A DNA stretch of 64,000 nucleotides, taken from assembly GCF_022810305.1 (NCBI RefSeq), contig NZ_JALGQH010000006.1, positions 62,001 to 126,000 on the forward strand, in the 5' to 3' direction. Positions 11,750-29,991 of the stretch are shown one piece after another (position 1 is the first letter of the stretch; each line of letters begins with the position of its first letter). Below the pieces are notes generated by a model. The model was given only the letters and a program-made list of their open reading frames with translations, did not search any database and had not been told where the DNA came from. The stretch is from Rhodococcus sp. ARC_M6. GTDB lineage: Bacteria; Actinomycetota; Actinomycetes; Mycobacteriales; Mycobacteriaceae. The position numbers and the translations under genes are program-made.

Positions 11750-11767
11750 TAATGAAATGTTTGCTAC
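11750..11767 (-). promoter_or_regulatory. KstR2-like operator copy 1 (half conserved)
   Basis: Minus strand GTAGCAAACATTTCATTA, 20 bp upstream of the ThDP enzyme start. The left half GTAGCAAA matches the consensus exactly; the right half keeps TTT and is degraded. See copy 2 at 11968. Confidence 0.5.
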
Positions 11768-11967
11768 TTGAAGTGCAGCCGAGATCACCCGATCGAACCG
11801 CATTCCGCAAGAAATCATCCCGCCTAGCGGACCTTCGGTCCCGATCGTGACTGAGCCCGGCACACGCGCTCACTCGATCTGCGATGCGGTCAGATCCGCT
11901 TCCCAGGGAGGTCTGAATCCCCCTGTCCCCCAGTGCTCGACGGTACAGATTGCCAAGCGGCCGAAAT

Positions 11968-11985
11968 GTAGCAAATGTTTGATAC
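11968..11985. promoter_or_regulatory. KstR2-like operator copy 2 (consensus)
   Basis: GTAGCAAATGTTTGATAC, identical to the copy at 29974. It lies in the 444-bp region between the ThDP enzyme start and the tnpB remnant, where I see no gene. Confidence 0.75.
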
Positions 11986-12057
11986 ACCGGTTAGTGTTGG
12001 CGCCTGGACGACTTGTCGACAACAACTCGAAGAACGACCCAGCAGTGGTGGCGTGAC

Positions 12058-12173
12058 TTGACTTCCTCTCGGCCGTGAACCGACCGAGATTCCCTACAGG
12101 ACTCACACCCCGTAGTTGCCCCTGAAACTCGCGTCCCAGAGTTCCTGTTTCACAGACAGTTGCCTCTACACGC
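12058..12173 (-). ncRNA. Candidate omega-RNA / right end of IS605-family element
   Basis: Directly downstream of the tnpB stop, on the tnpB strand, lie a GC-rich region with a CTCGG/CCGAG stem-loop, two copies of GGTGTGAGTCCT (one just inside tnpB) and a final GGAAGTCAA at 12066-12058. TnpB nucleases use an RNA made from this position, whose scaffold ends at the element border and whose guide is the flanking DNA; the guide here would start with GTCACGCCACCACTGCT. Position and structure fit, but the tnpB is broken and no expression is implied. Confidence 0.45.
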
Positions 12174-13118
12174 TTACGCGAGCAGAGGACTCACACCATC
12201 TCCACAGGCTGAAACCGCCAGTCCGACGGCCAAAATGTTGATCGCAGCATTGATATCCCGATCGTGATGGGCACCGCACCGGCACGTCCACACCCGCACG
12301 TCCAACGGCAACGACTCGACCACAACACCACATACCGAGCAGGTTTTCGACGACGGATAAAACCGGTCGATCGCGATTACCTGCCGCCCGTACCAATCGG
12401 CTTGGTAGTCGAGCATCGACCGGAACTCCGACCACGCCGCATCCGAAATCGCCCGCGACAAACTGCGGTTCTTCAGCATGTTCTGCACACTCAAAGTCTC
12501 GACGGCGATCACTTGGTTTTCGCGTACCAGTCGAGTGGAGAGTTTATGCAAATGATCGCGCCGCCGATCAGCAACACGCCCATAGATTTTCGCTACCTTC
12601 AACCGGGCCTTCGCCCGGTTCGCCGATCCCTTCTGTTTTTTCGCCAGCGCCCGTTGCGCTTTCGCCAACCGGACACGATCCTTCGCCTCATGACGCGGGT
12701 TGTCGATCTTCTCCCCCGACGACAACGTGAACAGGCTCGTGATCCCGGCATCCACGCCGACAGTGGTCCGTCGGCGTCAGTGCAGCGATTTCGGTCTCGA
12801 CGAGAATCGAAATATGGTACTGCCCACGAGAATTACGGGACACCGTCACCTGCGAAGGAATGGCACCGTGGGGCAATGGTCGCGACCATCGGATGTCCAA
12901 CGGCTCCGACTGCTTCGCCAACCGAATGACACCGCCCCGGTAGGTGAAGCAGTTCGAAAAATATGTTGCCGAATCCTTCGAGACACCCCGCTTCTTGAAC
13001 GTCGGATACCGGGTCTGCTTACGCCAGAACTTGTCGAACGCACTCTGCAGTTGCCGTAACGATTCCTGCAGTGGGCCTTTCGACGGCTCCGCCAACCATG
13101 TGGTGTCCGGCCAGTTAA
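12174..13118 (-). pseudogene. tnpB: tnpB (IS605-family OrfB), 3' part, frameshifted
   Basis: RNA-guided nuclease TnpB of IS200/IS605-type elements. One frame (about 13110-12770) encodes WLAEPSKGPLQESLRQLQSAF up to VETEIAALTPTD. A one-base shift near 12760, at a PTD/TTVGVDAG boundary, moves the rest to a second frame. That part holds the RuvC residues D (GVDAG), E (AVETLSV) and D (HDRDINAA) and the CSVCG/CRCG zinc ribbon, ending at 12174. The N-terminal part is separated by 1.37 kb and lies at 14479-14600. Catalytic residues survive but no continuous protein can be made. Confidence 0.85.
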
Positions 13119-14487
13119 CTGCACTAGAGATGGGTATCCTGCCGCCAACGACAGGGGTGCGCGATGGACGACGTACGACGCTTGCTGGGACACCGCAGCC
13201 CGCTCGCCCAGGTACCTCAGTTTCGACGTGCGCCGCTGCGTCAGAAGAAACCTCGGCGAGCGCCGTCCTCAGGCCGGGGCGATACCGAGTTCCACACCCA
13301 CGTACGACATGTCGTCGACGCCCTGGGCATTCGAGAATGCCTGGAAAACAAGCTCGTTGGGATGTGCCACTCCCGCGACATCGCGCAAGGTCACCATCGT
13401 CCGAACGGCCAGTTCGTGCATGGTGGGATGCGTCGTGTCCATTCCGGTCGGCGGGCCCAGCCAGATCGGCGCGTCGACAGCCCCGTGATGATCGGGCGTC
13501 CACTGCCACCCGAGAACGCTCATCAGCCGGTTGATTTCCTTCAGGTCCGATCTTGCAGCATCCCCGAAACCACACTCGCTGTCGATGTCACCACCGGAGT
13601 TGTAGAACTGTACGTCAACCTGGTTGTTCGATCCTTTTTGAGGGGCATCCAGGATGACATTGCCCAGCCACGGCAAAGTGGCCAGAACCCACTCGAACCG
13701 CGTGACGAACTCGTCCCACCCTGAGCACCGTGCCGGAAGGCCGGACAACGTCGGACGGTCGGAAGCGACCTCGCCCACCCGCTGTGTGCGGGTGGGGCCG
13801 AAGTTGTTGTAAGAGCTGACACGGAGCCGGTCAGGAGTCGTACCCAGTCCGTCGCGCAACACCGCGACGATTGCAGCGGCGATCTCGTATCGTTGGTCGT
13901 CGGCATTGTGGCGCCATCCCGTTCTCCACTCCCGCGCGTACTCCTCGACACGCCGGCCCCCGTGTTCGACGTCGTGATCGCGGCCGATACGGATTTCGAC
14001 AGACTTCCACAACGGCTGGTCGAGTGGCACCCAACGACCGGACTCACGGTCACGGACCTGGGAAAACAAGGTGGTCCGCTGCGACTGGATCACCGCCCGT
14101 AATCGGGCAGCCGTCACTGGTTCATCGGGCACCGTCACCCTGATATCAAGTCCTTTGTCGTCTTCTCGGAACAGGATCCGCTGCCCGGTCAACGTGTCTC
14201 GCAGTTGAAGGCTGTCGCCATCCGTCGGCGAAATCAGCGTCTCGTTGTCATCCCAGTCCGGGTACAGCACCAGTTGGATGTCCTCAAACAGACTGGTCCA
14301 AACGTCATCAGCCACAACCACTCCCCGTTTCCGAAACCTCCCGACAAACCTCCCGACAACCTACCGACACGCCCCGACACGTACGTTTCCGACGCCAACA
14401 AACAATCCGCCTCGGTAGCCGGGCGACAATCTCCAGACTGTCGAACGGTTCCGCCTTGTTTCAGACGAGAAGGCTTGCTTAGTGCAG
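13119..14487. mobile_element. 1.37-kb segment inserted within tnpB
   Basis: The two halves of tnpB join naturally as ...GWKRDP / (PDT)TWLAEPSKG..., yet lie 1.37 kb apart. The intervening DNA is bounded by inverted 8-mers, CTGCACTA at 13119-13126 and TAGTGCAG at 14480-14487. The only gene inside is a 348-residue protein with no transposase features. No clear target duplication is visible. It may be a small non-autonomous cassette or a product of recombination. Confidence 0.5.
13269..14315 (-). CDS. Protein of unknown function, possible TY-Chap-type domain
   Basis: 348 residues, soluble, no signal peptide or membrane span. The C-terminal half has WDEFVTRFEWVLATLP, then QVDVQFYNSGGDIDSECGFGD and INRLMSVLGWQWTP. 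This order (VQF strand, sparse acidic patch, then LGW) resembles the TY-Chap peptide-binding chaperone domains of actinobacterial proteins; I hold that tentatively. The GTG at 14315 is chosen because GGGGA lies 6 nt upstream; another GTG two codons earlier has no spacing. It is the only gene in the segment interrupting tnpB, on the same strand. Function unknown. Confidence 0.6.
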   Translation of the reverse strand: MADDVWTSLFEDIQLVLYPDWDDNETLISPTDGDSLQLRDTLTGQRILFREDDKGLDIRVTVPDEPVTAARLRAVIQSQRTTLFSQVRDRESGRWVPLDQPLWKSVEIRIGRDHDVEHGGRRVEEYAREWRTGWRHNADDQRYEIAAAIVAVLRDGLGTTPDRLRVSSYNNFGPTRTQRVGEVASDRPTLSGLPARCSGWDEFVTRFEWVLATLPWLGNVILDAPQKGSNNQVDVQFYNSGGDIDSECGFGDAARSDLKEINRLMSVLGWQWTPDHHGAVDAPIWLGPPTGMDTTHPTMHELAVRTMVTLRDVAGVAHPNELVFQAFSNAQGVDDMSYVGVELGIAPA

Positions 14488-14600: not shown

Positions 14601-14602
14601 GG

Positions 14603-14821: not shown

Positions 14822-14850
14822 CATCAGAAGTCGCGTGGAAGTTGGCCGTC

Positions 14851-16455
14851 TCACACTCGCGAGAGGGCCAACTTTCGCACCTCGCCCTTGGCAACTTTCC
14901 CACCGGGCCCAGTGGGAAGGTCGTCGACAAAGACCACATATTCCGGAATGTATTCGGTGCTAATTCCCTTCGCGCGCATCCATTCCGACAGTATCGCCGT
15001 GGAAAGTTCGACACCGGATTCGGCGACCACCACGGCGCACACCCGCTCCCCGAAAACGTCGTCACGCACCCCGACCACGGAAACAGCTCGAACTGACGGA
15101 TGCGCGCACATCAGTTCTTCGACGTCGACTGCGGAGATGTTCTTACCTCCGCGGATGATGATGTCGGCAATGCGTCCGACAACCCGTACCCGACCGGCAG
15201 CGTCGATATCCACTATGTCCCCGAGCAACATCCATCCATCTACCGTGTAAAGCTCGGCGTTCGCGTCTTCGTCCTGCCAGTAGCCCAGCGATTCGAGCGG
15301 CCCGTGGACAGCAGGTTGTCCACGCCGAGGCTCACCCTCACCGCCATTGTCAGAGAAAATCCGCACGTTCATGGACTCGATGACATGCCCGCAGGTTCTC
15401 AACCGAGTCTCACGGTCGTCATCGAGCGTGGTCTGACTGACAGCACCGGCTTCGTTCGAACCGTAGAACTGCAAAACCTTGGCACCCGTTCGCTGTTCGA
15501 ATGCCAGCGCCTCGGAGTAGGGAACCGCTTCGCCACCCGTGTAGAGCACTCGGAGACTGGACAGGTCTGCTTTACGCGCCCGTTCCGATCGAAGCAACAT
15601 CTTGAATTGTGTACTGACACAACACAGCACGGTGACTCGTTCGCGCTCGATCAGATCTATCATCACCTCGACGTCGAACTTCTCCAGGACGGCGGTGCGT
15701 GCACCGAGCAGAGTGGGCAAAAAATGGGCAGACCACAGCCCGAAGCCGAACGGCGCCGGTACTGCCGAGCAGAAAACATCGACGTCGGTGATCCGCGCAC
15801 CCACCATCGCCAATCGTGCGAATTCGATCCACTTCTTCTCGTTGTGCGCCACTACTTTCGGCAGTCCGGTGGTGCCCGAGGTCGAGTTCAGCAGCGTGGT
15901 GTCGGACGTAGTGAAGACTCCGACACTGTTGGACGACTCAGATGACTCGACGCTACTGCGCGCCTCCGTGCGATCGGTGGTACCCAGCTCCACCACGCCG
16001 TCGTCATCGACCACAATGACGCTGAGAACCGTCGCCCCACTTCGCTGCAGGTCATCGACAACGTCGTAACAGCTGCGGCCGCGGACTGTTGCGGTGGTGA
16101 TCAGAACCCGGCAGTCGGCTTTGACCATCAGGTGCGCGATTTCTCGTGTCCCGGAACGAAAACCGATTCCAGCTGCGACCCGGCCGGCCCGATAGGCGCC
16201 ACACAATGCGGCATGCACTGCCATGGTGTCGGGGAGATAGATCGCCACACCGGAACCGCCGACCGATTCTGCGGCAGCGAGTGCTGCGGCGATTCGGTCG
16301 GCGGTCAGATCGTAGTCGCGCCAGGTGTAGCGGCGGTCCCCGGTGACGAAGGCTACCGAGTCGGGCTTGCTCGCGGCCCGGTGACGGACGACCTCGCTGA
16401 TACTGACGTCCGAAAAGGCTTCAGGGTTGTCTGCGAACGTACTTCGACCCAACAT
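14851..16455 (-). CDS. Acyl-CoA synthetase (AMP-forming), FadD-like
   Basis: Activates a carboxylic acid to its CoA thioester with ATP. 534 residues, usual for the family. The P-loop STSGTTGLPK is at 191-200, an adenine-binding YGSNEAG motif lies around 340, GWMLLGDIVDIDAAGRVRVVGR is the hinge region, and the catalytic lysine is K520 in GPGGK. The ATG at 16455 has AGAGG 6 nt upstream. It is last in a leftward operon (SDR, two MaoC proteins, oxidoreductase, acyl-CoA dehydrogenase, ligase), 18 bp after the dehydrogenase gene. A pathway acid side chain is the expected substrate. Confidence 0.9.
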   Translation of the reverse strand: MLGRSTFADNPEAFSDVSISEVVRHRAASKPDSVAFVTGDRRYTWRDYDLTADRIAAALAAAESVGGSGVAIYLPDTMAVHAALCGAYRAGRVAAGIGFRSGTREIAHLMVKADCRVLITTATVRGRSCYDVVDDLQRSGATVLSVIVVDDDGVVELGTTDRTEARSSVESSESSNSVGVFTTSDTTLLNSTSGTTGLPKVVAHNEKKWIEFARLAMVGARITDVDVFCSAVPAPFGFGLWSAHFLPTLLGARTAVLEKFDVEVMIDLIERERVTVLCCVSTQFKMLLRSERARKADLSSLRVLYTGGEAVPYSEALAFEQRTGAKVLQFYGSNEAGAVSQTTLDDDRETRLRTCGHVIESMNVRIFSDNGGEGEPRRGQPAVHGPLESLGYWQDEDANAELYTVDGWMLLGDIVDIDAAGRVRVVGRIADIIIRGGKNISAVDVEELMCAHPSVRAVSVVGVRDDVFGERVCAVVVAESGVELSTAILSEWMRAKGISTEYIPEYVVFVDDLPTGPGGKVAKGEVRKLALSRV

Positions 16456-16473
16456 CTAGTGCCTCTGTTCTTG

Positions 16474-17673
16474 TCAGCGATACTTGCGGATCTCGGTCCG
16501 CGCGACACTGCGGATATGGACTTCGTCCGGTCCGTCGGCAATTCCCAAAATCCTGGCACTGGCCCACATCCGGGCAATGGGGAAATCCTCGGTGACTCCC
16601 CCGCCACCGTGGCATTGGATGGACCGTTCGAGAACAGAGCGTGCCACTCGCGGAGCGATGACCTTGACCGCGGCAATTTCGATCGCGGCTTCCTTGACAC
16701 CCATCTGGTCGATGATCCACGCGGTCTTGAGAACCAGCAGACGCGCCTGCTCGATCTCCATGCGGGACTCCGCAATCCACGTCCGAACAACACCTTGGTC
16801 AGAAATCGGACCACCGAAAGCGTCGCGCGACAACGTTCGCCGGACCATCAATTCCAGTCCACGTTCCGCCATTCCGATGCAACGCATCGCGTGATGGATT
16901 CGGCCCGGACCCAACCGAGCTTGTGCAATGGCAAATCCTTCACCTTCACCAGCGAGAATGTTGGTTACGGGCACTCGCACGTCCGTGAACGTAATTTCGC
17001 AGTGTCCGTGCTGATCGTGGTAACCGAAGATCGGTAGTGACCGGATGATCTCGACGCCCGGCGTGTTCACCGGTACCAGGACCATCGACTGCTGGCGGTG
17101 GGGCGCCGCCTCAGGGTCGGTCTTGCCCATCAAAACCAAGATCTCGCAACGTGGGTCGGCGGCGCCCGTTGTCCACCACTTGCGACCGTTGATGACGTAT
17201 TCGTCGCCGTCACGAACGATGGAGGTGCTGATGTTTCGAGCATCCGACGACGCGACAGCAGGCTCGGTCATGGAGAACCCGGAACGCATACGGCCGTCCA
17301 GCAGAGGCTCGAGCCACTGCTCCTTCTGCTCGGGCGTGCCGAACATATGAAGGATCTCCATGTTGCCGGTGTCCGGTGCCGCGCAATTCAGCGCTTCCGG
17401 CGCGATGTAAGGCGACCGTCCGGTGATCTCGGCGATGTGCGCATAGTCGAGGTGTGAGAGCCCGGACAGCGAGGGAAGGAACAGATTCCACATCCCCTGA
17501 CGCCGAGCCTCGGCCTTCAGTTCTTCGACCACAGGCGGCAACGTGTGATTACGCGGCCCCATCTCTTCCATCTGCTGCGCGTACACCGACTCGGCCGGAT
17601 ACACATGATCGACCATGAACGCGTTCAAGCGGTCCATGATCTCCTGGGCTGCCGGGCTGGGAGCTAGGTCCAC
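16474..17673 (-). CDS. ACAD11/LvaC-type acyl-CoA dehydrogenase
   Basis: 399 residues. Long stretches recall the C-terminal half of mammalian ACAD11: NLFLPSLSGLSHLDYA, APDTGNMEILH, MTEPAVASSDARNI, VINGRKWWTTGA and LGPGRIHHAMR, and IQCHGGGGVTEDFP. Proteins of this branch, including LvaC of the Pseudomonas levulinate pathway, act with a kinase to remove the hydroxyl of 4-hydroxyacyl-CoAs via a phosphorylated intermediate. A matching kinase gene occurs at 28198. The start is the GTG at 17673, with AGAGGA about 8 nt upstream. Ordinary FAD-dependent alpha,beta-dehydrogenation remains the alternative role. Confidence 0.88.
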   Translation of the reverse strand: MDLAPSPAAQEIMDRLNAFMVDHVYPAESVYAQQMEEMGPRNHTLPPVVEELKAEARRQGMWNLFLPSLSGLSHLDYAHIAEITGRSPYIAPEALNCAAPDTGNMEILHMFGTPEQKEQWLEPLLDGRMRSGFSMTEPAVASSDARNISTSIVRDGDEYVINGRKWWTTGAADPRCEILVLMGKTDPEAAPHRQQSMVLVPVNTPGVEIIRSLPIFGYHDQHGHCEITFTDVRVPVTNILAGEGEGFAIAQARLGPGRIHHAMRCIGMAERGLELMVRRTLSRDAFGGPISDQGVVRTWIAESRMEIEQARLLVLKTAWIIDQMGVKEAAIEIAAVKVIAPRVARSVLERSIQCHGGGGVTEDFPIARMWASARILGIADGPDEVHIRSVARTEIRKYR

Positions 17674-17741: not shown

Positions 17742-18710
17742 TCAGTCGCGGACCAAAATCACCTTGCCGGCAGCCTGCCGATTCATCACGATGTTCAGGG
17801 CTTCGGACGCGTCGTCGAACGGCAAGGTCCGAGACACGTGCGGCACCAGCAGCCCCTGCTCGTACCAGTCCAGCAACTGACGCATGTTGCTCGCATTCTC
17901 GGCCGGGTTCCGTTTCGCCCACACGCCCCACAACACACCGAGAAGTGAGGCCGACGAGATGAGTAGACGGTTCATTCCCACCTTCGGAATGTCGCCACTC
18001 GCGTATCCGACGGTCAGGTACCGGCCGCCCCATTGGAGCGCCCTGATTGCAGCCTGCGCCGCGTCGCCGCCGACCGGGTCGTAGACGACGTCGACGCGTT
18101 CGCGTGTCTTCAGTTCGGATGCCAGATCACACTCTGCGTAGTTGATCAGTGTCGACGCACCGTGCTCTTGGCACAGCGCCAACTTCTCGGCGGTGGATGC
18201 CGCGGCAATGACCTCGGCTCCCAAGGCTCGACCGATCTCGACAGCAGTGAGCCCGACACCGCCAGCCGCACCGAGCACCAGAAGTCGTTCTCCGGCTGCA
18301 AGTCCCGCTCGGTCTACGAGGCCGTGGTAGGAGGTTCCGTATGTCACGGAGAATCCTGCGGCGTCAGGGAAGGGCATCGCGTCGGGAATCGCGAATACTT
18401 GTGACGCTGGTACCGGGACCTGCTCGGCGTAACCGCCGATTCCACAGAACGCCAGGACACGAGTCCCCACGTTCAAACCTTCGACACCGTCTCCGACTGC
18501 CCGGATTACGCCGGCCACTTCGGATCCCGGAGTGAAGGGCAGGGGCGGCTTAGTCTGGTAGTTTCCGGCGACCATCAGTCCGTCCGGGAAGTTGATGCCG
18601 CAAGCCCGGACATCCACGACCACAGTTCCCGGTGCCGCAACCGGGTCCGGCACATCGGTAAGCCGGAGGACATCCGGCTCACCGAGCGTGTGGCACTGGT
18701 GCGCCTTCAC
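17742..18710 (-). CDS. Quinone oxidoreductase-like MDR enzyme
   Basis: NADPH-dependent medium-chain reductase of the QOR branch, 322 residues. GroES-like domain at 1-115 without the cysteine cluster of zinc alcohol dehydrogenases, then the nucleotide fold with GAAGGVG at 147-153. It probably reduces an enone, enoyl-CoA or quinone-like intermediate. The GTG start at 18710 overlaps the stop of the upstream MaoC gene (GTGA), so it is translationally coupled in the operon. Confidence 0.85.
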   Translation of the reverse strand: MKAHQCHTLGEPDVLRLTDVPDPVAAPGTVVVDVRACGINFPDGLMVAGNYQTKPPLPFTPGSEVAGVIRAVGDGVEGLNVGTRVLAFCGIGGYAEQVPVPASQVFAIPDAMPFPDAAGFSVTYGTSYHGLVDRAGLAAGERLLVLGAAGGVGLTAVEIGRALGAEVIAAASTAEKLALCQEHGASTLINYAECDLASELKTRERVDVVYDPVGGDAAQAAIRALQWGGRYLTVGYASGDIPKVGMNRLLISSASLLGVLWGVWAKRNPAENASNMRQLLDWYEQGLLVPHVSRTLPFDDASEALNIVMNRQAAGKVILVRD

Positions 18711-19138
18711 CCCGACACCACACCGGGAGCGATGACGAAGGTTGCCCACACCCGCACCGCGACGCCGCCCGTCTGGCGGGCGCACTCGAGTTCCACGTCG
18801 ACCTTGCTCTCGGTGTTGTCCTGATATTCCTTGACAACCTTGGCGGTACACGTCAGGACGTCTCCGGGCCACACTTGCTCGAGGAATCGAATACGGAAGG
18901 ACCGTACGTTCTCGGCACCGAGCCAGTCCGTCGCATAGGTGCCCAGCACTCCGGCCTGGAACATTCCCACGGAGAACGGACTCTCGAATCCTGCGGCCTT
19001 GGCGAAGGTCTCGTCATGATGAATCGGGTTCATATCCCCCGACGCACCTTGGTAGCGAACGAAGTCCGTGCGGGTTACCGGTCCGATGGTCCACGGCCGC
19101 GGTGCCGTCATTGCGGTGGGCTGTGCTGTCATGGTCAT
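18707..19138 (-). CDS. MaoC-like enoyl-CoA hydratase subunit (catalytic type)
   Basis: 143 residues with the hydratase-2 motif GDMNPIHHDETFAKAAGF, where D35 and H40 correspond to the catalytic pair. It hydrates trans-2-enoyl-CoA to a 3-hydroxyacyl-CoA. It overlaps its upstream partner (ATGA at 19138) and its downstream neighbour. In mycolate bacteria such adjacent short MaoC genes often encode heteromeric hydratases (ChsH1-ChsH2 in cholesterol side-chain degradation, HadAB/HadBC in mycolate synthesis), and a heteromer is likely here. Confidence 0.85.
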   Translation of the reverse strand: MTMTAQPTAMTAPRPWTIGPVTRTDFVRYQGASGDMNPIHHDETFAKAAGFESPFSVGMFQAGVLGTYATDWLGAENVRSFRIRFLEQVWPGDVLTCTAKVVKEYQDNTESKVDVELECARQTGGVAVRVWATFVIAPGVVSG

Positions 19139-19584
19139 GATTCCTCCGACGGTGCTCGTCCGGTCTCGACGCCGGTCATCTTCGCCTGCGCCACCAAGGT
19201 TCCGTTTTCGTCCACGAAGTCGGTGACCATGACTGCGAAGGTCATTTCGCCGCCTCGTCGACCTTCCTTGGTGAAGACGTCGGTGATCCGTGAGCGGGCC
19301 TCGAGTTTGGTTCCCGCTCGCGGCGGCGGACCGAAGAAGGTGTATTCCTGTTCAGCATGCAGACCTCGCTGCTGATTCAGTTCGACTGCGCTCCAAGGGT
19401 TCTGATCGCCGGACTGCCAGAAGAACGTGGTGGTCAAGAAGGTCGGCGGACTGACCGGGTTTTCCGAGTCGAGGTACTCAGGATTGGTGCTGCGGATCGC
19501 GTGGGCGAATTCGCGGACCTTTCCGCGTTCCACGTCGAGCCGGAACGGTGTTCCCGTTACACCCACGGCATCTTTGTTTGCCAT
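19135..19584 (-). CDS. MaoC N-terminal-like dehydratase partner (FAS1-type hot-dog)
   Basis: 149 residues, hot-dog fold of the MaoC_dehydrat_N type: PPTFLTTTFFWQSG, then LHAEQEYTFFGPPPRAG and an ITDVFTKEGRRGGEMTF strand pair. It lacks the D-x4-H catalytic motif found in the next gene, as expected for the structural partner of a two-subunit hydratase. The start at 19584 is preceded by CTCGGAGTGAG on the coding strand. It follows the SDR gene by 33 bp. Confidence 0.8.
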   Translation of the reverse strand: MANKDAVGVTGTPFRLDVERGKVREFAHAIRSTNPEYLDSENPVSPPTFLTTTFFWQSGDQNPWSAVELNQQRGLHAEQEYTFFGPPPRAGTKLEARSRITDVFTKEGRRGGEMTFAVMVTDFVDENGTLVAQAKMTGVETGRAPSEES

Positions 19585-20514: not shown

Positions 20515-20532
20515 GTATCAAACATGTCAAGC
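20515..20532 (-). promoter_or_regulatory. KstR2-like operator copy 3
   Basis: Plus strand GTATCAAACATGTCAAGC; the first eleven bases match the reverse complement of the consensus exactly. It sits between the ipdC-like stop and the SDR start, overlapping the last codons of ipdC, so the SDR operon has its own control point inside the longer leftward array. Confidence 0.65.
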
Positions 20533-22373: not shown

Positions 22374-23236
22374 GCCGACACCGCCTGGGAATCGCGCATC
22401 GCGACAGCGCGCTGGTAGTCCGCTTCGCTACCGGAAAGGTACTCGCCGACAAAGGCTTTCCACTGTTGTGGATCGCGGGCGGCGGCCGCATATTCCCGCT
22501 GGAAGGATTCGTCGCGTTCGTAGTTCGGCACGCACGAGGTGAAATGTGCGCCGTTCGGTGCTTCGACCACACCGGAGACCAGGAGACGGGCGATCCGCAG
22601 CGTCGACGGATGAGCATCGGCCGTCAAGTCCTTGGTGGGCACGATTTCCTCGCACGACACATAGGCGTCCTCGGCTGCCATGCAGAACAGATCGTCGAAA
22701 TACAGGTCAGGGCCCAAGAATTGGGCATTGCCATGCCTGTCTGCACGGTTCATGTGCACCAGTGCCGCGTCAAGATTCAATGCGGGCATCGCTGCAAAAA
22801 TCTCGTCTCCGTACGGGTCGGACACGGTACGCATATCGGGGTTGACCGTCATGACGTCCGATCCCAGTCCAGCTCGGGTCGGCAAGAAGGGCATCCGGAT
22901 GCCGGCAGCATACAAACCCCACTGCAGCATTCCCTCGTCGTACTCGGCCACTTCCACCGCTCCGGCCTGACGGACGGCCCGGAAATGCGGATCGAGGGCA
23001 ATCGAGTCCAACGAAACGAACCCGAAAATCACCTTCTTGACCTTCCCTGCTGCACAGAGCAATCCGACGTCAGGTCCACCGTAGGACACGATGGTCAGAT
23101 CCTTCAGGTCGGATCGAAGAATTGCACGCACGAGGGACATCGGCTTGCGCCGTGACCCCCAACCACCGATACCGATCGTCATACCGGACCGCAGCCGACG
23201 TACGACATCGTCCTCGGTCATCGTCTTGTCACTCAA
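22370..23236 (-). CDS. IpdA-like CoA-transferase-fold ring hydrolase, alpha subunit
   Basis: 288 residues. LRSGMTIGIGGWGSRRKPMS, LTIVSYGGPDVGLLCAAGKV, FGFVSLDS, YFDDLFCMAAE and VVEAPNGAHFTS follow M. tuberculosis Rv3551 (IpdA), from memory. The start is the TTG at 23236: AAAGGG lies 8 nt upstream and the resulting N-terminus has the same length as the mycobacterial protein. A GTG three codons earlier and an ATG five codons later are alternatives. A consensus-like 18-bp operator lies 54 bp upstream, so ipdABC form their own unit here. Confidence 0.87.
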   Translation of the reverse strand: MSDKTMTEDDVVRRLRSGMTIGIGGWGSRRKPMSLVRAILRSDLKDLTIVSYGGPDVGLLCAAGKVKKVIFGFVSLDSIALDPHFRAVRQAGAVEVAEYDEGMLQWGLYAAGIRMPFLPTRAGLGSDVMTVNPDMRTVSDPYGDEIFAAMPALNLDAALVHMNRADRHGNAQFLGPDLYFDDLFCMAAEDAYVSCEEIVPTKDLTADAHPSTLRIARLLVSGVVEAPNGAHFTSCVPNYERDESFQREYAAAARDPQQWKAFVGEYLSGSEADYQRAVAMRDSQAVSA

Positions 23237-23289: not shown

Positions 23290-23307
23290 GTAGCAAACGT
23301 TTGATTC
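23290..23307 (-). promoter_or_regulatory. KstR2-like operator copy 4
   Basis: GTAGCAAACGTTTGATTC, with a perfect AGCAAACGTTTG core and one mismatch at the penultimate base. It lies between the ipdA-like start and the stop of the TIM-barrel gene. Confidence 0.75.
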
Positions 23308-23313: not shown

Positions 23314-24168
23314 TCATGGTTTCATCTCCGCGTCAACCGCCAACTGCGCGGTGAGCCAGGAATACGCTCGCCTGAGCGCACTCTCCGGCCCTTCCTCCTC
23401 AATCGCAGGACCGAGTATCTCCAGCTCAACAGCACCGCAGTAGCCGAGACCGAGCACTTCACGTAACAGTCGATCCATCGGAAGATCTCCGTCGCCGGGT
23501 ACCCACCGGTTGGGAACCGCGAGCGTTCCTACCCGGAAATCGCTTACCTGCACGATCTGCACCCGATCGAGTTCAGCCCGCAAGGTACCGAGTAGATCCG
23601 GTTCCTGGAATGCGCAATAGAGGTCGACGACCATTCCGATGTCCAGACGCCGTGCGATTACCGCCGCATCGCGAACTGTATGAACGAAACTCAGATCCGA
23701 ACGCATCTGCATGGTGTTCTCCAGGGCGAGCCGAACCCCCAACTGTTTGGCCCGCTCGGCCACTGGCGACACGCGATCGATCAATCGGTCTGCTGCAGCT
23801 TCCCAGCTGAGACGTCCGGACGGTCCCGTTGTGAACAGCACCGTCGATGCTCCCAGACCTGCCGCGCCGACCACTGCTGCGTCGAGTGCCGCAATCTCCC
23901 TCTCCCAGGCAGTTCCATCGTCCGGATCGGCTGTGATTCCGTGCGCGATACAGCCGACCGCGACGCCGAACTCATGGGCCAGCGATACCGTTTCCGGCCA
24001 ACCGGTTCGACCCGCTTTGTACGCGGACAGTGCCACGGCGGAAATCCCGAGACGTCGGCAGAGCGCCAACTCGTCACGCAGTGCCCAACTCGCGGTCGTA
24101 ATCAGACTGACGGAAGGAAATGGGCCTCGCACCAGGTCCATCTGGCGGGATTTGTCGTTGTGATCCAT
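23314..24168 (-). CDS. Xylose-isomerase-like TIM-barrel protein
   Basis: 284 residues of the sugar phosphate isomerase/epimerase superfamily. Candidate metal ligands come in the usual order on successive strands: E in LALENTM, D in MVVDLYCAF, D in VQVSDF and E in AVELEILG. I chose the ATG at 24168 because GCAGGAG precedes it; the frame extends to 24288 without a ribosome site. It is transcribed away from the second sulfatase and shares its operator. Relatives include epimerases, inosose dehydratases and hydroxypyruvate isomerases; no specific reaction can be assigned. Confidence 0.75.
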   Translation of the reverse strand: MDHNDKSRQMDLVRGPFPSVSLITTASWALRDELALCRRLGISAVALSAYKAGRTGWPETVSLAHEFGVAVGCIAHGITADPDDGTAWEREIAALDAAVVGAAGLGASTVLFTTGPSGRLSWEAAADRLIDRVSPVAERAKQLGVRLALENTMQMRSDLSFVHTVRDAAVIARRLDIGMVVDLYCAFQEPDLLGTLRAELDRVQIVQVSDFRVGTLAVPNRWVPGDGDLPMDRLLREVLGLGYCGAVELEILGPAIEEEGPESALRRAYSWLTAQLAVDAEMKP

Positions 24169-24230
24169 AGTCGCTCCTGCTTTCCTCGATTGACCGTGAA
24201 TCACACCGTAATCCCAATTTGAAACATTGC

Positions 24231-24248
24231 GTAGCAAATGCTTGATAC
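24231..24248. promoter_or_regulatory. KstR2-like operator copy 5, divergent TIM-barrel/sulfatase region
   Basis: GTAGCAAATGCTTGATAC, one base from consensus, 40 bp upstream of the sulfatase start and 62 bp upstream of the TIM-barrel gene. A TTGAAA at 24219 and TGATAC at 24243 with 18-nt spacing could be the sulfatase promoter, overlapped by the site. Confidence 0.75.
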
Positions 24249-24288
24249 GGTGCATACTGCCTTCAGAATCCATTCCAGGAGTGCACAT

Positions 24289-26538
24289 ATGAACGTCGAT
24301 ACCCGCACGAGTACCTCGGGTTCACAGCGCCGCGAACCCAGCGAATCCGATGCACCGAAATGGCCGGTTCCCGTGTCGGCGCCCGCAGGCGCACCGAACG
24401 TTCTCGTGATCATGACCGATGACGTCGGTTACGGGGCAAGCAGCACTTTCGGTGGACCGATTCCCACTCCGGCGCTCGACGGACTCGCCGAAACCGGTTT
24501 GCGCTACACGCAGTTCCATACAACTGCGATGTGTTCCCCGACCCGCGCGGCACTCATGACCGGTCGCAACCACCACAAGGTCGGTGCGGGGCGCGTCACC
24601 GAGATGGCGCTTGCCTACGACGGATACACCAGCATCATCCCCGACAGCGCTGCCACGATTGCCGAAATGCTGCGGTGCAACGGATATTCCACCGCACAGT
24701 TCGGTAAGTACCACAACGTCCCCGTCTACGAGACCGGGCCGGCCGGACCGTTCGATCATTGGCCCACGAACATGGGATTCCAACATTTCTACGGCTACCT
24801 CGGCGGCAGCACCGACAATTGGGCCCCCGCACTGTACGAGGGCACCAGTCCGGTGGAACCACCGACGGACGATGCCACCTACCACCTCGAAAAAGACCTG
24901 GCAGACAAGGCAATTACCTGGATTCGTCGGCAAAAGTCGGCAGCACCGAACAAGCCTGTCTACATCCAATACAGCAATGCCGCCACTCACGCTCCGCACC
25001 ATGCACCACGAGAGTGGATCGATCGATTCCGCGGGCAGTTCGATCAAGGATGGGATGCCATTCGCGAAGAAACGATCGCTCGGCAGAAACAACTCGGTGT
25101 TGTACCCACAGACACCGAACTGACCGAACGTCCCGAACAGATCGCATCATGGGACTCCCTCACCGCCGACCATCAAAAAGTGGCAGCCCGCATGATGGAG
25201 GTCTACGCCGGCGCTCTCGCTTACGCCGACTCCCAGATAGGCCGTGTTCTCGAAGAATTGGAACGCATCGGCGAACTCGACAACACGCTGGTCTTCTACA
25301 TCCAAGGCGACAACGGAGCCAGTCCCGAAGGTGGAGCCAACGGCTCTCTCAACGAGATGAGCTACGTCAACCGTCTGGAAGACAGCACCGAATCCCTCCT
25401 CGAACACCTCGACGAACTGGGCGGCCCCCTGCACTACAACCACTTTCCAGCCGGTTGGGCCCACGCGACCGACACCCCGTTCAAGTGGTTCAAGATGGTC
25501 GCGTCGCATTTCGGAGGCACTCGCAACGGGATGGTGCTCTCTCACACTGCGCGAATCACCGACGCCGGCGGGATCCGCACGCAATTCCACCACGTCATCG
25601 ACGTCGTTCCCACCATCCTCGATGCCATCGGAATAGAAGCACCCAAACAGATTCGGGGCGTAGAACAGATGCCGCTGTGCGGAGTCCCGATGACCTACAC
25701 CTTCGCTGATCCGGCTGCACCTTCTACCCGAACGACACAATACTTCGAATTGATGGGCAACCTCGCAATCTATTCCGACGGGTGGGTTGCCGCTACTACG
25801 CCCCGGGAAATGCCGTGGGAATTCGCCACCGGCGCAGACTCTCTCGACGATGCGAACTGGGAGTTGTACCACGTCGAGAACGACTACAGCCAATCCGACG
25901 ACCTGTCGGCGCAGTACCCCGACAAACTCAGCGCGCTGGTCGACCTGTTCTGGGGGGAGGCCGAAGCAAACCAGGTTCTTCCCGTCATCGTCAAAGCGCT
26001 CAATCCTGGCCCGCCCAAGCCGAACCCGACTTTCGGCCTGACCACGTTCGTCTACTACGACGGGGTGACGCGAGTGACTCCCGGCAGTGCACCCGATGTC
26101 ACCAACAAGCCGTTCAGCATTTCCGCGGACGTAGTGTTGACTTCGAACCACGCACACGGCATGCTCCTGTCCCAAGGTGGACGATTCGGTGGCCATGCCC
26201 TGTATCTGGCAGACGGTGTCCTCACCTACCATTACAACCTCTTGGGTCGCGAGCGCTCTACGGTCACTTCTGAATTCGCGCTTCCGGTCGGTCGACACCA
26301 ACTCACGGCCGTGGTCGATATCGATCCCACGCAGCGCGGCGGATCGGCAGCGATAACCCTGCTCTGCGATGACGAGAAGGTTGGATACGGAACGGTGGCG
26401 AACACTGCCCCGTTCCGCCTCAACTACATCGAAGGCCTGAGCGTCGGGCGGGATACCGGAACCCCGGTGTCCGAGCAGTACCAGCTGCCGTTCATCTTCG
26501 ACGGAGTACTCGACAAAGTCACCGTCACGCTTGACTGA
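24289..26538 (+). CDS. Arylsulfatase, type I, with C-terminal beta domain
   Basis: 749 residues. D43-D44 (VIMTDDVGYG) bind metal, and C82 in CSPTR is the formylglycine site with RAALMTGRNHHKVG following. GDNGASPEGG near 365 supplies further metal ligands. The last 170 residues after TFGLTTFVYYDG form a beta-rich domain (lectin/jellyroll-like). No signal peptide, so desulfation would occur inside the cell after uptake. The ATG at 24289 has AGGAG at 7-nt spacing. It heads a unit with a binding-protein gene 59 bp downstream and a kinase gene. It is clearly related to the sulfatase at 1-1789 but diverged. Confidence 0.93.
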   Translation: MNVDTRTSTSGSQRREPSESDAPKWPVPVSAPAGAPNVLVIMTDDVGYGASSTFGGPIPTPALDGLAETGLRYTQFHTTAMCSPTRAALMTGRNHHKVGAGRVTEMALAYDGYTSIIPDSAATIAEMLRCNGYSTAQFGKYHNVPVYETGPAGPFDHWPTNMGFQHFYGYLGGSTDNWAPALYEGTSPVEPPTDDATYHLEKDLADKAITWIRRQKSAAPNKPVYIQYSNAATHAPHHAPREWIDRFRGQFDQGWDAIREETIARQKQLGVVPTDTELTERPEQIASWDSLTADHQKVAARMMEVYAGALAYADSQIGRVLEELERIGELDNTLVFYIQGDNGASPEGGANGSLNEMSYVNRLEDSTESLLEHLDELGGPLHYNHFPAGWAHATDTPFKWFKMVASHFGGTRNGMVLSHTARITDAGGIRTQFHHVIDVVPTILDAIGIEAPKQIRGVEQMPLCGVPMTYTFADPAAPSTRTTQYFELMGNLAIYSDGWVAATTPREMPWEFATGADSLDDANWELYHVENDYSQSDDLSAQYPDKLSALVDLFWGEAEANQVLPVIVKALNPGPPKPNPTFGLTTFVYYDGVTRVTPGSAPDVTNKPFSISADVVLTSNHAHGMLLSQGGRFGGHALYLADGVLTYHYNLLGRERSTVTSEFALPVGRHQLTAVVDIDPTQRGGSAAITLLCDDEKVGYGTVANTAPFRLNYIEGLSVGRDTGTPVSEQYQLPFIFDGVLDKVTVTLD

Positions 26539-26597
26539 AAATACACGTACGCCTGATCGACAACATTCCTTCGAACGCAATCGAAGAGAGGTAAACC

Positions 26598-28172
26598 ATG
26601 ACACACACCCGGTTCGGCAAGGGAAAGCTCGTCACTGCTCTTGCCGTGGCAGCGCTGTCACTGTCCGCCTGTGGCGGAGGCGCAAGCGGCACGACGAACA
26701 GTGGAAGCGTCGGCGGTGAGGTCGACCCCGCTGCAGTGATACGGATTGCCTCCGCCGGCACGTCCAACAATCTCGACCCCCAGCAACAGATGACCATCGG
26801 TGGCTGGAGCCATCTCACGGCACTCTTCGATCGACTCATGACCGTCGACAGCAACGACAAAATTGTTCCCGGACTTGCCAAGTCGTGGGAATTCAGCTCG
26901 GACGGCAAGTATCTGGAGCTGAAGCTGCGTGACGACGTCACCTTCAACGATGGCACCCGCTTCGACGCCGAGGCGGTTGCCGCCACCCTGAAACGAGGCA
27001 AAACACTCGCGGGCAGTACCTCGGCTGCGGCGCTCGCGGGCGTCATCGATATCACTGCGACTGACATGTACACCGCGCGCATCGAACTGGCCCCGGGAGC
27101 CGGTGTCGAACTACCCGGAGTATTCACCACTCCGGTAGGCATGATGATCAGTCCCGCAATGATCGCCGCCGGAACCGATATCCGCAACGATCCGGGACTT
27201 GCAGGTTCCGGCGCCTACGTCGTCACCAAATACGTTCCCGGAGAGTCGCTTGTAATGAAGCGGTCCGATCGTCCGTACTGGGACGCGGAGGGCGGACGCC
27301 TCGGCGGCATCGATATCACGCTTGTCCCCGACGCGTCGACGCGTCTGAATGCCATCCAGACCGGAGCACTGGATCTCACGTGGGTCAGTTCGGCCAGCGA
27401 AGTGGTGCAGGCAAATACGCTTGCCGACCGCGGCGCCTTCGCTATCGACAAGGTTCCATTCCGAAGCACCCTCGGTGTCTATCTGCGTCCGACGGGTCAG
27501 CTGGCCGATCAGGAAATACGTCAAGCGGTTGCACAGTCGATCAATCCGGATGAGATCAACGCGCTGTTCTCCGGGAACTGCACACCACACAACCAGATGT
27601 TCCCGAAGACGAGCTCGGCATTCGATCCCGACTACAAGTATCCGTACGCCTTCGATCCGGAGGCGGCCAAGGCATTGGTCCAGAAGAATGGAAACACCAA
27701 GGTCACGCTAACGTTCGGTGCCGGGAGCAACACCGAAAAGCCCACCAACGTCATCCAGTCTGCCCTGTCCACTTCGGGCTTCGATGCCGAGCTCAATCCC
27801 GTTCCGCTCAACCAACTCGAACCACGCTACATTGCCGGTGAATTCGATCAGATGGTCGCCAACTCGTTCACACCTAAAGTCGATCCTGCGGAAACCGTGA
27901 ACTTCTACTTGGTCAACAACTTCAAGTTCGCTGCCGACGACCCGGAAATCCTGGGCATGATCGAGCAGGCTGCCGATCCGACGATGTCCGAGAACGACCG
28001 TGCCGAGCTGTACCACAAGATCTCGGCGAAGACGCTGGAGAAGGCCCTGTGGGTCCCGATCTGCAACCAGACCAACGCCACGCTCTCGAGCAACAAAGTG
28101 GTCGGCGCCGACGACGTCCCGTGGGTCAACGTCGGAATCTACGATCTTCGCCATCTTGCGATGACAAAGTAG
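26598..28172 (+). CDS. ABC transporter substrate-binding lipoprotein, family 5 (DppA/OppA-like)
   Basis: 524 residues. Lipoprotein signal with lipobox LSAC, C25 being the lipidated cysteine, then a Gly/Ser linker. SBP_bac_5 features: NLDPQQQMTIGGWSHLTALFDRLM, LELKLRDDVTFNDGTRFDAEAV and NPDEINALF. The family binds peptides, but also opines, nickel chelates and other organic solutes. The ATG follows AGAGAGG. It sits between the sulfatase and kinase genes with no permease of its own; the only permease/ATPase set nearby is dppFDCB-like at 34-38 kb. Confidence 0.9.
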   Translation: MTHTRFGKGKLVTALAVAALSLSACGGGASGTTNSGSVGGEVDPAAVIRIASAGTSNNLDPQQQMTIGGWSHLTALFDRLMTVDSNDKIVPGLAKSWEFSSDGKYLELKLRDDVTFNDGTRFDAEAVAATLKRGKTLAGSTSAAALAGVIDITATDMYTARIELAPGAGVELPGVFTTPVGMMISPAMIAAGTDIRNDPGLAGSGAYVVTKYVPGESLVMKRSDRPYWDAEGGRLGGIDITLVPDASTRLNAIQTGALDLTWVSSASEVVQANTLADRGAFAIDKVPFRSTLGVYLRPTGQLADQEIRQAVAQSINPDEINALFSGNCTPHNQMFPKTSSAFDPDYKYPYAFDPEAAKALVQKNGNTKVTLTFGAGSNTEKPTNVIQSALSTSGFDAELNPVPLNQLEPRYIAGEFDQMVANSFTPKVDPAETVNFYLVNNFKFAADDPEILGMIEQAADPTMSENDRAELYHKISAKTLEKALWVPICNQTNATLSSNKVVGADDVPWVNVGIYDLRHLAMTK

Positions 28173-28197
28173 GCCTACGCATGAACAAGGACCGCAC

Positions 28198-29256
28198 ATG
28201 ACCGATAGATCCACTGCTACCAGAACCACGGCCACGCTCGGTATCGAGCGTCTCGCGGTCACCGCCTGGTTCGAGCGCGCCGTCCCGAATGCTCTCGCTC
28301 CGTTCAGCTTCGAACAGATAGCCGGGGGCCGGTCAAATCTGACGTACCTGGTCACCGACACCGCGGGTACTCGTTGGGTACTCCGCCGACCCCCGTTGGG
28401 AAAGATCGTGGCCACCGCCCACGACGTCGTCCGCGAGGCAGGCATCTTGTCTCGACTCTCAGATACCGGGGTTCCGGTTCCAACGGTCGTCGGTGTCTGT
28501 ACCGATCTCGAGATCAACGGATCTCCATTTTTCGTCATGGAATTCCTGGACGGAGAAATCCTGCGGGACTCGGACGCGGTGGAGGCTTTCCTCCCTCTCG
28601 CCGAACGCCGCGCACTCGGCGATTCGCTCGTCGACACTCTCGCGCGCCTGCACTCGTTGGACCCCGCCGCTCATGGTTGGTCTCAGCGCTCGGCATCGGG
28701 AGGGTATGTCGAACGGCAACTCTCACGCTGGTCCGCCAGCTGGGAAGGAGATCGTGTGCGAGTCCTCGAGGACATCAGTCGCACCCGTGACGCATTGAGT
28801 CGCCGGATCCCACCCCAATTTCGCTCGAGCGTCGTACACGGTGACTATCGCCTCGACAACGCTCTGATGGGTACACAGGGCCAGGTGCTCGGAGTCCTCG
28901 ACTGGGAACTGTCGACAGTCGGTGACCCACTGGCGGACCTGGGGCAGTTCTTGATGTACTGGGCGCAACCTGGCGACGAGGTAACCGCGCTCGAGACGCC
29001 CCCGACGTTCGCGGCCGGTCTACCCACTCGAGACGAACTGGCTGATCGCTACCTGACCGCGACCGGTATGCCTGGCGACGACTTGGAGTACTACCTGGCA
29101 TTCAACTGGTGGAAAACGGCCTGCATTGTCGAAGGCGTCTACACCCGCGTATCGCGCGGGTCGATGGGCCGCACCGACCGCACCCCCGAATCGTTCGGCG
29201 TCCAGGCGCAGCGTCTGGCGGCACAGGCCTGGTCGTGCGCACAGAACCTCGCGTGA
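28198..29256 (+). CDS. APH-fold acyl-CoA kinase, LvaA / ACAD11 N-domain type
   Basis: 352 residues of the aminoglycoside-phosphotransferase/choline kinase fold. N-lobe GGRSNLTYLVTD (43-54), Brenner motif VVHGDYRLDNALM with D216 and N221, and metal site LDWELSTVGDPLADLG with D235. This subgroup corresponds to the N-terminal kinase of mammalian ACAD10/ACAD11 and to LvaA, which phosphorylate the 4-hydroxyl of 4-hydroxyacyl-CoAs. The partner ACAD11-type dehydrogenase is at 16474. It follows the binding-protein gene by 25 bp, in the sulfatase unit. The acyl substrate is unknown. Confidence 0.82.
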   Translation: MTDRSTATRTTATLGIERLAVTAWFERAVPNALAPFSFEQIAGGRSNLTYLVTDTAGTRWVLRRPPLGKIVATAHDVVREAGILSRLSDTGVPVPTVVGVCTDLEINGSPFFVMEFLDGEILRDSDAVEAFLPLAERRALGDSLVDTLARLHSLDPAAHGWSQRSASGGYVERQLSRWSASWEGDRVRVLEDISRTRDALSRRIPPQFRSSVVHGDYRLDNALMGTQGQVLGVLDWELSTVGDPLADLGQFLMYWAQPGDEVTALETPPTFAAGLPTRDELADRYLTATGMPGDDLEYYLAFNWWKTACIVEGVYTRVSRGSMGRTDRTPESFGVQAQRLAAQAWSCAQNLA

Positions 29257-29285
29257 AACGCAGCGGTGCCCTTTTCGCCGGGCGC

Positions 29286-29303
29286 GCATCAAACCTTTGT
29301 TCA
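29286..29303 (+). promoter_or_regulatory. KstR2-like operator copy 6 (weaker), regulator promoter
   Basis: GCATCAAACCTTTGTTCA keeps ATCAAA and TTTG at the right spacing. It lies 50 bp upstream of the KstR2-like TetR gene, as expected for autoregulation. Confidence 0.5.
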
Positions 29304-29353
29304 ACTGTCGTAGAATTCGCGACGCGATCCTTGCACAAACATCGGAGGTAGGC

Positions 29354-29932
29354 ATGGAGTGGTCTGAGCGCCACGACCTGATTCTCGGGCAGGCAGCATC
29401 GCTGTTTGCCACCAAGGGAATCGCAGGCACCCCGGTGCGGGATATCGCCGACGGAGTCGGCATCCTCTCCGGCAGCCTTTATCACTACTTCGAATCCAAG
29501 GATGCTATCGCGTACATGATCGTGTCGAGGTATCTCGACGATCTGACTGCTCGATACGAAGCGATTGCCGACGCCGATCCGCGGGATCGGCTTAGCTCGA
29601 TCGTCCACGCCTCACTGGCCGCAAGCGTTGCGCACCCACATGCCTCGGAGATCTATCAGAACAATTCCGAGTATCTTCGAAAACTTCCGGGGAACAACAC
29701 TATTCGTTCCGCTGCCCGCACCACCAAGGCAACGTGGATGGATGCGATCGCCTCCGGAATCGAAGCCGGACAGCTGCGCGCGGATCTACCCGCAGACGTC
29801 ATCTACGGATTGATGCGCGACGCGGTCTGGTTGTCGCTCCGGTGGTTCTCCCCCACCAAGAACTATTCGATCGAACAGTTCGGAGACACCTTGATCTCAG
29901 TCTTCCTCGAAGGCATCGAACCACAAAAGTAA
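29354..29932 (+). CDS. KstR2-like TetR-family regulator
   Basis: 192 residues. The DNA-binding half AASLFATKGIAGTPVRDIAD then GVGILSGSLYHYFESKDA, and the C-terminal GIEAGQLRADLPADVIYGLM then RDAVWLSLRWFSP, match M. tuberculosis KstR2 (Rv3557c) as I recall it. KstR2 is an acyl-CoA-responsive repressor of HIP (C/D-ring) genes. The ATG at 29354 has GGAGG at 5-nt spacing. Sites at 29286 and 29974 flank the gene, and five more copies lie within 18 kb upstream. I infer that it is the repressor of this regulon, released by a pathway CoA thioester. Confidence 0.85.
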   Translation: MEWSERHDLILGQAASLFATKGIAGTPVRDIADGVGILSGSLYHYFESKDAIAYMIVSRYLDDLTARYEAIADADPRDRLSSIVHASLAASVAHPHASEIYQNNSEYLRKLPGNNTIRSAARTTKATWMDAIASGIEAGQLRADLPADVIYGLMRDAVWLSLRWFSPTKNYSIEQFGDTLISVFLEGIEPQK

Positions 29933-29973
29933 CCGACCCCGCACAGTTCACACCACCGTCTACATTCTCCCAT

Positions 29974-29991
29974 GTAGCAAATGTTTGATAC
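29974..29991 (+). promoter_or_regulatory. KstR2-like operator copy 7 (consensus)
   Basis: GTAGCAAATGTTTGATAC, identical to the copy at 11968, 18 bp upstream of the SDR start at 30010. Confidence 0.75.

Follow-up and report, generated by a model that had tools for sequence, protein, structure and literature searches.

A KstR2-like TetR regulator with a switched operator is predicted to control a second ring-opening regulon in Rhodococcus sp. ARC_M6

The gene encoding a KstR2-like TetR regulator (here denoted TetR_A) is located within a catabolic gene cluster of Rhodococcus sp. ARC_M6, in a stretch of 64,000 nucleotides (contig NZ_JALGQH010000006.1, positions 62,001 to 126,000; denoted the window) that carries seven copies of an 18-bp palindrome. 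Comparison with related genomes indicates that TetR_A is very probably an autoregulated repressor of the KstR2 subfamily, with an 18-bp operator of its own and a ring-opening regulon parallel to that of KstR2, the operator having apparently been switched once. What appears to be new is that a member of the KstR2 subfamily has altered its operator code, a switch that the recognition helix does not explain. Sites of this code (CAAA..TTTG) are denoted A-type and those of the CAAG..CTTG kind G-type; they differ at operator positions 8 and 11. The genes, including those encoding the ring-hydrolase subunits IpdA2 and IpdB2, and the sites are listed in Table 1.

A search of the window for GTAGCAAATGTTTGATAC with up to three mismatches gave four matches in total, exact at 11968 and 29974, with one mismatch at 24231 and two at 23290, where 0.01 were expected. 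The site at 29286 has the core AnCAAAnnTTTGnT intact but not the flanks, and those at 11750 and 20515 have one intact half-site each. When the window was scored with a symmetric matrix built from 35 A-type sites of 12 other genomes, the window excluded, these seven sites came out as the top seven (32.2, 32.2, 29.6, 26.7, 16.9, 7.7 and 5.8 bits) and nothing else reached 4 bits, in agreement with the initial annotation, which had placed seven copies here and none elsewhere in the window. The best score per shuffle in 40 first-order Markov shuffles averaged 4.2 bits, with a maximum of 13.1. Four sites are strong (11968, 23290, 24231 and 29974), one is half-conserved (11750) and two are weak (29286 and 20515); only four or five of the seven can thus be called strong, 20515 having been counted among the close variants in the initial annotation. 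Most copies lie in front of a catabolic gene or operon, as had been said of all of them; the exceptions are 29286, which fronts the regulator gene, 20515, which lies inside an operon and overlaps the final bases of the IpdC-like gene, and 11968, with its long distance to the nearest start codon. Position 8 is A in 68 of the 70 half-sites of the training sites, whose core was preselected, and the site at 24231 is mixed CAAA/CTTG. The sole CAAG..CTTG match in the cluster, at 22621, is internal to the ipdA2 gene. We also observed that in 35 of 41 A-type sites (window and 14 related loci) position 4 is G in one half and T in the other, a conserved asymmetry of the palindrome.

To see the sites in the whole host genome (G000; 6.34 Mb, 134 contigs), we used scans of graded stringency. 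The core AnCAAAnnTTTGnT occurs 7 times, including 4 times in the window, against 1 in the reversed control, and GTAnCAAAnnTTTGnTAC at 0-1 mismatch finds the four strong window sites and one palindrome located close to the termini of contigs C3 and C134. That palindrome (GTGCCAAATTTTTGGTAC, at C3:149330 and C134:255) probably belongs to a repeated element. At 3 mismatches the genome-wide scan is uninformative, with 69 places against 76 in the reversed control.

Across 401 genomes of the family, the strict 18-mer GTANCAAANNTTTGNTNC is found in 16, namely in 15 of the 15 that encode TetR_A (at least 59% identity) and in 1 of the 386 that do not. The corresponding Fisher value of 2e-26 overstates the evidence, because the family genomes are related and not independent. 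Relatives of TetR_A at 59-98% identity are present in 14 of the 400 other genomes, two of which belong to the same genus (98%); the 12 genomes whose regulator is 59-69% identical are denoted diverged. Among the 80 loci from a contig search with the window TetR there was one close relative (98%), and a plasmid search gave 7 records, all below 60%. The looser pattern GNANCAAANNTTTGNTNC occurs at 40 places in the whole genomes of the 14 other carriers (reversed control, 1), and 39 of these lie in tetR_A or ipdA2 clusters; the remaining one, in G051, is ~25 kb away, at most 2 kb from an 82% orthologue of the thiamine-pyrophosphate (TPP) enzyme gene. An A-type site precedes ipdA2 in all 11 diverged genomes that have this gene, and the orthologous tetR has one at most 350 bp upstream in 10 of the 12 diverged clusters. 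Further A-type sites are found near the kinase and TIM-barrel genes and, in G114, before a 71% identical sulfatase gene. The gap between the IpdC-like gene and the first short-chain dehydrogenase/reductase gene (SDR1) holds a site in 3 of the 11 diverged clusters with both genes (one mixed CAAG/TTTG), which lends some support to 20515. While the core genes have diverged to 44-88% identity, their order has altered and the cluster of G114 is spread over two contigs, the 18-mers are nearly unchanged. Of the 16 genomes that encode IpdA2 at 76% identity or more, 14 also encode TetR_A. G016 and G023 have the 11968 operator as well, in their syntenic regions; in G023 (locus L159) the operator, at 4015, is retained and the TPP-enzyme gene is mostly gone (a short 59% match is left). 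A-type sites also occur between a transketolase-like gene and an MFS transporter gene (L152:13337 and L275:4674-4734), where the regulon may extend.

TetR_A resembles KstR2 over its full length, as had been proposed: its best phmmer matches among solved structures are 4w97, 4w1u and 2ibd, over residues 6-189. The arginine and tryptophan of the ligand-domain motif YxxxRDxxW contact HIP-CoA, and TetR_A retains the motif as YGLMRDAVW. It is motif KstR2-5 of PMC13176608. The KstR2-3 signature [ED][DE][RM]N[RK][QE]QRK is absent from TetR_A, which has IRSAARTTKA at that place, as well as from R. jostii KstR2 (2ibd). Since 2ibd lacks it, and since that source reports it only from Mycobacteriaceae (PMC13176608), the signature does not define the subfamily. 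In the regulator tree TetR_A and KstR2 form separate clades (100/99 and 100/100), as the initial annotation had anticipated, so TetR_A is not a KstR2 orthologue. The host encodes five clearly KstR2-like proteins, beyond which the scores drop; the other four are 46% (C98:21550), 42% (C41:463852), 36% (C82:31146) and 33% (C14:53194) identical to TetR_A. Because it groups with KstR2 of M. tuberculosis and R. jostii, C14:53194 is taken as the housekeeping KstR2. The KstR2, C82 and C98 regulator loci of the host have CAAG-type sites; C82 (L030) and C98 (L027) are further KstR2-like regulators, each with its own CAAG-type operator variant. The TetR_A sites do not conform to the KstR2 operator AnCAAGnnCTTGnT, which has 11 matches genome-wide and none on the window's contig; this count is at chance level (reversed control, 12), and only matches near regulators are telling. 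Nor is TetR_A encoded among the kstR2-regulon genes fadD3, fadE30 and ipdF: the window proteins find matches of just 28-33% in the 20 kb around the genome's own KstR2 gene (L031), and the window ligase reaches only 224 bits with the FadD3 model, for which the cut-off is 657.

To learn about the direction of the switch, we turned to order-level relatives of TetR_A (46-54% identity, 17 matches), the loci of 13 of which were compared. G-type sites (CAAGCGCTTG, e.g. GTAGCAAGCGCTTGGTTG) are present at 12 of the 13 loci, and four of the G-type loci (L229, L232, L234 and L240) also have IpdA2/IpdB2/IpdC-like genes. Two family genomes with IpdA2 and no TetR_A at the cut-off (G044 and G069) have a G-type site before ipdA2. 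Because distant regulators and these ipdA2 genes have CAAG..CTTG sites, the A-type state looks derived. In the regulator tree, the proteins with A-type operators are one side of a single branch (100/99), which requires one change, and in the IpdA tree the IpdA2 loci with A-type operators form one clade (98/89) within the G-type IpdA2. The symmetric base change relative to the KstR2 motif, claimed earlier, is real, and the site types and trees suggest that the G-to-A change at positions 8/11 looks derived and happened once, in an otherwise continuous regulon. Around 14 other IpdA-like genes (62-67% identity) and the genome's own ipdA, ~1.5 kb of flanking sequence yielded neither a CAAG- nor a CAAA-type palindrome; next to the genome's own ipdA there is an imperfect AAACCAAGCGATTGCTTG.

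Residues that may underlie the switch were sought by comparing the first 60 positions of 15 TetR_A proteins with those of 29 regulators from CAAG-type clades, some of which had their operator type assigned by clade (the genome's own KstR2, for instance, is ~2 kb from its nearest exact site). C41 (L028), two L171 proteins, eight X-clade proteins and L241 were left out for want of a clear operator, and L065 as a near-copy. W3, H7, Q13 and K/P/S27 are exclusive to TetR_A. The 29 comparison proteins all have R7 and T27, and 11 of them are gapped at position 3. When all relatives are considered, T27 has also been lost outside TetR_A, as 7 of the 8 X-clade proteins have S or P there. Recognition helices are nearly identical throughout the KstR2-like subfamily: GILSGSLYHYF is found in 11 of the 15 TetR_A proteins (GVLSGSLYHYF in the other 4) and in 9 of 9 C98-clade proteins, whose promoters have CAAGCRYTCG in 8 of 9 cases and CTAGCGCTTGCTAG in L169. 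A changed recognition helix was rejected as cause of the switch, the same helix occurring in the CAAG-type C98 clade, and D30 and Y45, both present in that clade, were rejected likewise. Position 27 presumably falls at the beginning of helix 2, next to an arginine that recognizes a base close to the middle of the operator (by comparison with TetR itself), a location that would fit operator positions 8/11.

Several observations weigh against an autoregulated TetR_A regulon with a single switch. The 12 training genomes are mutually related and the training sites were picked by their A-type core. The scores of 29286 and 20515 lie inside the range of shuffled sequence and, as the shuffles peak at 13.1 bits, these two sites are not significant by score alone and rest on position. 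One genome (G390) has a strict 18-mer without TetR_A. In G101 and G067 (L155, L156) the 350 bp next to tetR yielded no A-type site, the sites preceding the neighbouring kinase gene. G067, which has TetR_A and A-type sites with SDR1, the MaoC pair, the quinone oxidoreductase and the acyl-CoA dehydrogenase, encodes no IpdA2 at the cut-off, and IpdAB2 is therefore not obligatory to the system. Among the order-level relatives, L241 shows neither site type, and in the compared stretch of G-type loci with IpdA2 the site lies directly before ipdA2 in 3 of 6 (L229, L242 and L243). The node that joins TetR_A to its G-type relatives is weakly supported (79/67), and these relatives do not form one group in the regulator tree (2 changes).

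Three other explanations were weighed. The one that survives best, although improbable, is that the housekeeping KstR2 or another KstR2-like paralogue uses the sites as weak or alternative operators, TetR_A being incidental. The near-identity of the recognition helices, the mixed site at 24231 and the presence of five KstR2-like proteins in one genome would all fit such a binder, but strict A-type 18-mers are missing from 385 of the 386 family genomes without TetR_A, which makes the housekeeping KstR2 unlikely; moreover, the KstR2, C82 and C98 loci have CAAG-type sites, and none of the 11 chance-level AnCAAGnnCTTGnT matches falls on the window's contig. It is less likely still that TetR_A acts as an activator or dual regulator: the 238 bp between the 11968 site and its gene are unusual for simple repression, but start codons follow the remaining sites at 18-65 bp, as for the repressor KstR2. 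Shared cluster ancestry through horizontal block transfer, without selection of the palindromes as operators, would suit the sporadic cluster (TetR_A in 15 of 401 genomes) and is very unlikely, given nearly constant 18-mers among reordered genes of 44-88% identity, on two contigs in G114.

We favour TetR_A as the repressor. A TetR_A dimer would bind the 18-bp pseudopalindrome G(T/C)A(G/T)CAAA(T/C)(G/A)TTTG(A/C)TAC, which with one exception is placed 18-65 bp ahead of a start codon, and would block about six units: the TPP enzyme gene, the ligase-to-IpdA2 operon, the TIM-barrel gene, the sulfatase, solute-binding protein and kinase genes, tetR itself, and SDR2-SDR3. Most likely, a CoA thioester made by the pathway would release TetR_A and derepress these units. 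The regulon would descend from one with CAAGnnCTTG-type sites, in which G/C at bases 8/11 gave way to A/T a single time, on the branch leading to the TetR_A clade, accompanied by changes outside the recognition helix (R7 to H and T27 to K/P/S, also W3 and Q13).

The predicted pathway centres on paralogues of ipdA, ipdB and ipdC. IpdA2 is 60-61% and IpdB2 48% identical to the genome's own IpdA and IpdB. In alignments to the 6co6 and 6coj chains, the alpha subunit retains the glutamate mutated in 6coj (EYDEGM), which we take to be the catalytic residue. The beta subunit has a glycine (SDGEA) aligned to Gly57, where a CoA-transferase has glutamate; the meaning of this replacement is taken from PMC5380842. 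By its catalytic residues the pair is an IpdAB-type ring hydrolase, predicted to hydrolyse a cyclic acyl-CoA, and a CoA-transferase reading of 21597-23224 was rejected on the same residues. No crotonase-family (EchA20-type) or thiolase (FadA6-type) gene was found among the scanned cluster genes; an enoyl-CoA hydratase gene at 50471-51307 is distant from the operator sites. Because a crotonase-family gene is missing among those scanned, one ring opening, not two, is likely. The SDR, IpdC-like and IpdAB-like enzymes would dehydrogenate and hydrolytically open one carbocycle, in parallel to the last steps of steroid breakdown. By analogy with ACAD11, the APH-like kinase and the acyl-CoA dehydrogenase may dehydrate a 4-hydroxyacyl-CoA. 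The C-S-P-T-R motif, which we take to be an S1-type arylsulfatase signature, together with sulfatase-like genes (44-71% identity) that belong or lie close to the clusters of G036, G101, G114, G198 and G252, only some of which adjoin an A-type site, and a formylglycine-generating-enzyme-like gene in L153, suggests a sulfate ester as substrate source; the substrate may arrive in that form. The annotation's diverged KstR2 paralogue with a parallel pathway is supported by the best structural match, the clade, the co-occurrence and the ipdABC paralogues; TetR_A is one of five such proteins, not a simple twin of KstR2. At somewhat less than even odds, we further propose that an ancestral circuit of KstR2 type went from CAAGnnCTTG to CAAAnnTTTG a single time, with no recognition-helix change to account for it, the effect coming from residues of helix 2 and the N-terminus (T27 to K/P/S, R7 to H), and that this insulated a second ring-cleavage regulon from four KstR2-like paralogues of the same cell. 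The substrate of that regulon would be sulfated, opened at one ring and not yet linked to IpdAB chemistry.

The system shares with KstR2 (Rv3557c, MSMEG_6009, ro04598) the TetR subfamily, the size, the YxxxRDxxW motif, a CAA..TTG inverted repeat and a site before its own gene, and with the KstR2 regulon targets of ipdA, ipdB and ipdC type and the site-to-start spacing. KstR2 sites lie 22-82 bp from start codons (Kendall 2010, PMC3068626), and the KstR2 motif and three sites per genome are already known from that source. TetR_A differs in its separate clade and in operator positions 8/11 (A/T, not G/C), and its cluster adds a sulfatase, a kinase, a MaoC pair and a TPP enzyme, with no EchA20- or FadA6-type gene among those scanned. 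With IpdAB, the COCHEA-CoA ring hydrolase (6co6, 6coj, 6con), the window pair shares 61% identity of alpha to the genome's IpdA and the key Glu and Gly; it differs in that the IpdA2 group stands apart from IpdA (100/100) and no crotonase partner was found in the window cluster. PMC3161971 describes R. equi ipdA2B2 (REQ_00850/00860) as a second IpdAB set with no assigned role and no echA20 paralogue alongside, which seems to let an ipdAB mutant grow once a lag has passed. The window pair resembles it in being a second set with no echA20-type gene among the scanned cluster genes. KstR3 of Mycolicibacterium neoaurum, a third TetR repressor of sterol catabolism, differs in controlling a side-chain (HBC) operon (PMC10398937), and its name, being taken, is unsuitable for TetR_A. 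No description of the TetR_A regulon, its operator or a sulfatase-linked IpdAB was found in the open-licence literature searched. The switch would offer a natural experiment in repressor/operator co-change, with one base pair per half-site, apparently one tree branch, orthologous targets on both sides and same-helix paralogues with CAAG-type sites, and it points to named residues. For a second IpdAB-type ring hydrolase the regulon would also supply gene context and a regulatory handle, the extra copy of R. equi having no assigned role in the text available.

Table 1. Predicted genes and putative operators of the TetR_A cluster (positions in the window).
Feature	Position	Strand	Location	Evidence
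TPP enzyme (PRK06154 family)	10056..11729	-		NCBIfam NF004807, 820 bits, above cut-off
Putative operator, half-conserved	11750..11767		20 bp before TPP-enzyme start	16.9 bits
Putative operator, perfect 18-mer	11968..11985		238 bp upstream of TPP-enzyme gene, nearest start codon	
AMP-dependent acyl-CoA ligase	14851..16455	-		PF00501
Acyl-CoA dehydrogenase	16474..17649	-		PF00441; 82-88% identical in diverged clusters with whole gene
Zinc-type NAD(P)H quinone oxidoreductase-like	17742..18722	-		PF00107
MaoC-like hydratase	18707..19138	-		PF01575
MaoC-like hydratase, FAS1_DH type	19135..19584	-		PF13452
SDR1	19618..20493	-		53% identical to SDR divergent from housekeeping ipdA
Weak putative operator	20515..20532		junction IpdC-like gene/SDR1	5.8 bits
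IpdC-like flavoenzyme (NMO fold)	20527..21600	-		PF03060; 58% to gene beside housekeeping ipdAB
IpdB2-like ring-hydrolase beta subunit	21597..22373	-		6co6_B, E 2.5e-71
IpdA2-like ring-hydrolase alpha subunit	22370..23224	-		6co6_A, E 1.5e-103
Putative operator	23290..23307		65 bp before ipdA2-like gene	29.6 bits
Xylose-isomerase-like TIM barrel	23314..24174	-		PF01261
Putative operator	24231..24248		divergent promoter, TIM-barrel gene/sulfatase	26.7 bits
S1-type arylsulfatase, C-S-P-T-R signature	24289..26538	+		best PDB 4cxk, E 5e-62
Extracellular solute-binding protein family 5	26598..28172	+		PF00496
APH-like kinase, related to ACAD11 kinase part	28198..29256	+		PF01636; 3dxp, 8v3v
Weak putative operator	29286..29303		50 bp before tetR itself	7.7 bits; autoregulation predicted
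TetR_A, KstR2-like TetR repressor (predicted)	29354..29932	+		PF00440; best PDB match KstR2 4w97, E 9e-38
Putative operator, perfect 18-mer	29974..29991		18 bp before SDR2	
SDR2	30010..30801	+		PF00106
SDR3	30836..31612	+		PF13561
Second solute-binding lipoprotein	31779..33386	+		translation read by eye; putative regulon member by position only

Outside these features, the segment 12057-14602 has no blastn match in the syntenic G016 locus and holds a TY-Chap3-domain gene and an IS605-type tnpB (12174-12755), the other part of which seemingly lies in another frame (12688-13575). An oligopeptide-type ABC transporter (34089-37964; two permeases, two ATPases), without an A-type site, is convergent to the second solute-binding protein gene. 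At 40457-41641, with no A-type site nearby, lies a gene encoding a KshA-type Rieske oxygenase (3-ketosteroid 9alpha-hydroxylase C-terminal domain), which has an IclR regulator gene downstream and another upstream, past an acyl-CoA-dehydrogenase-like gene.

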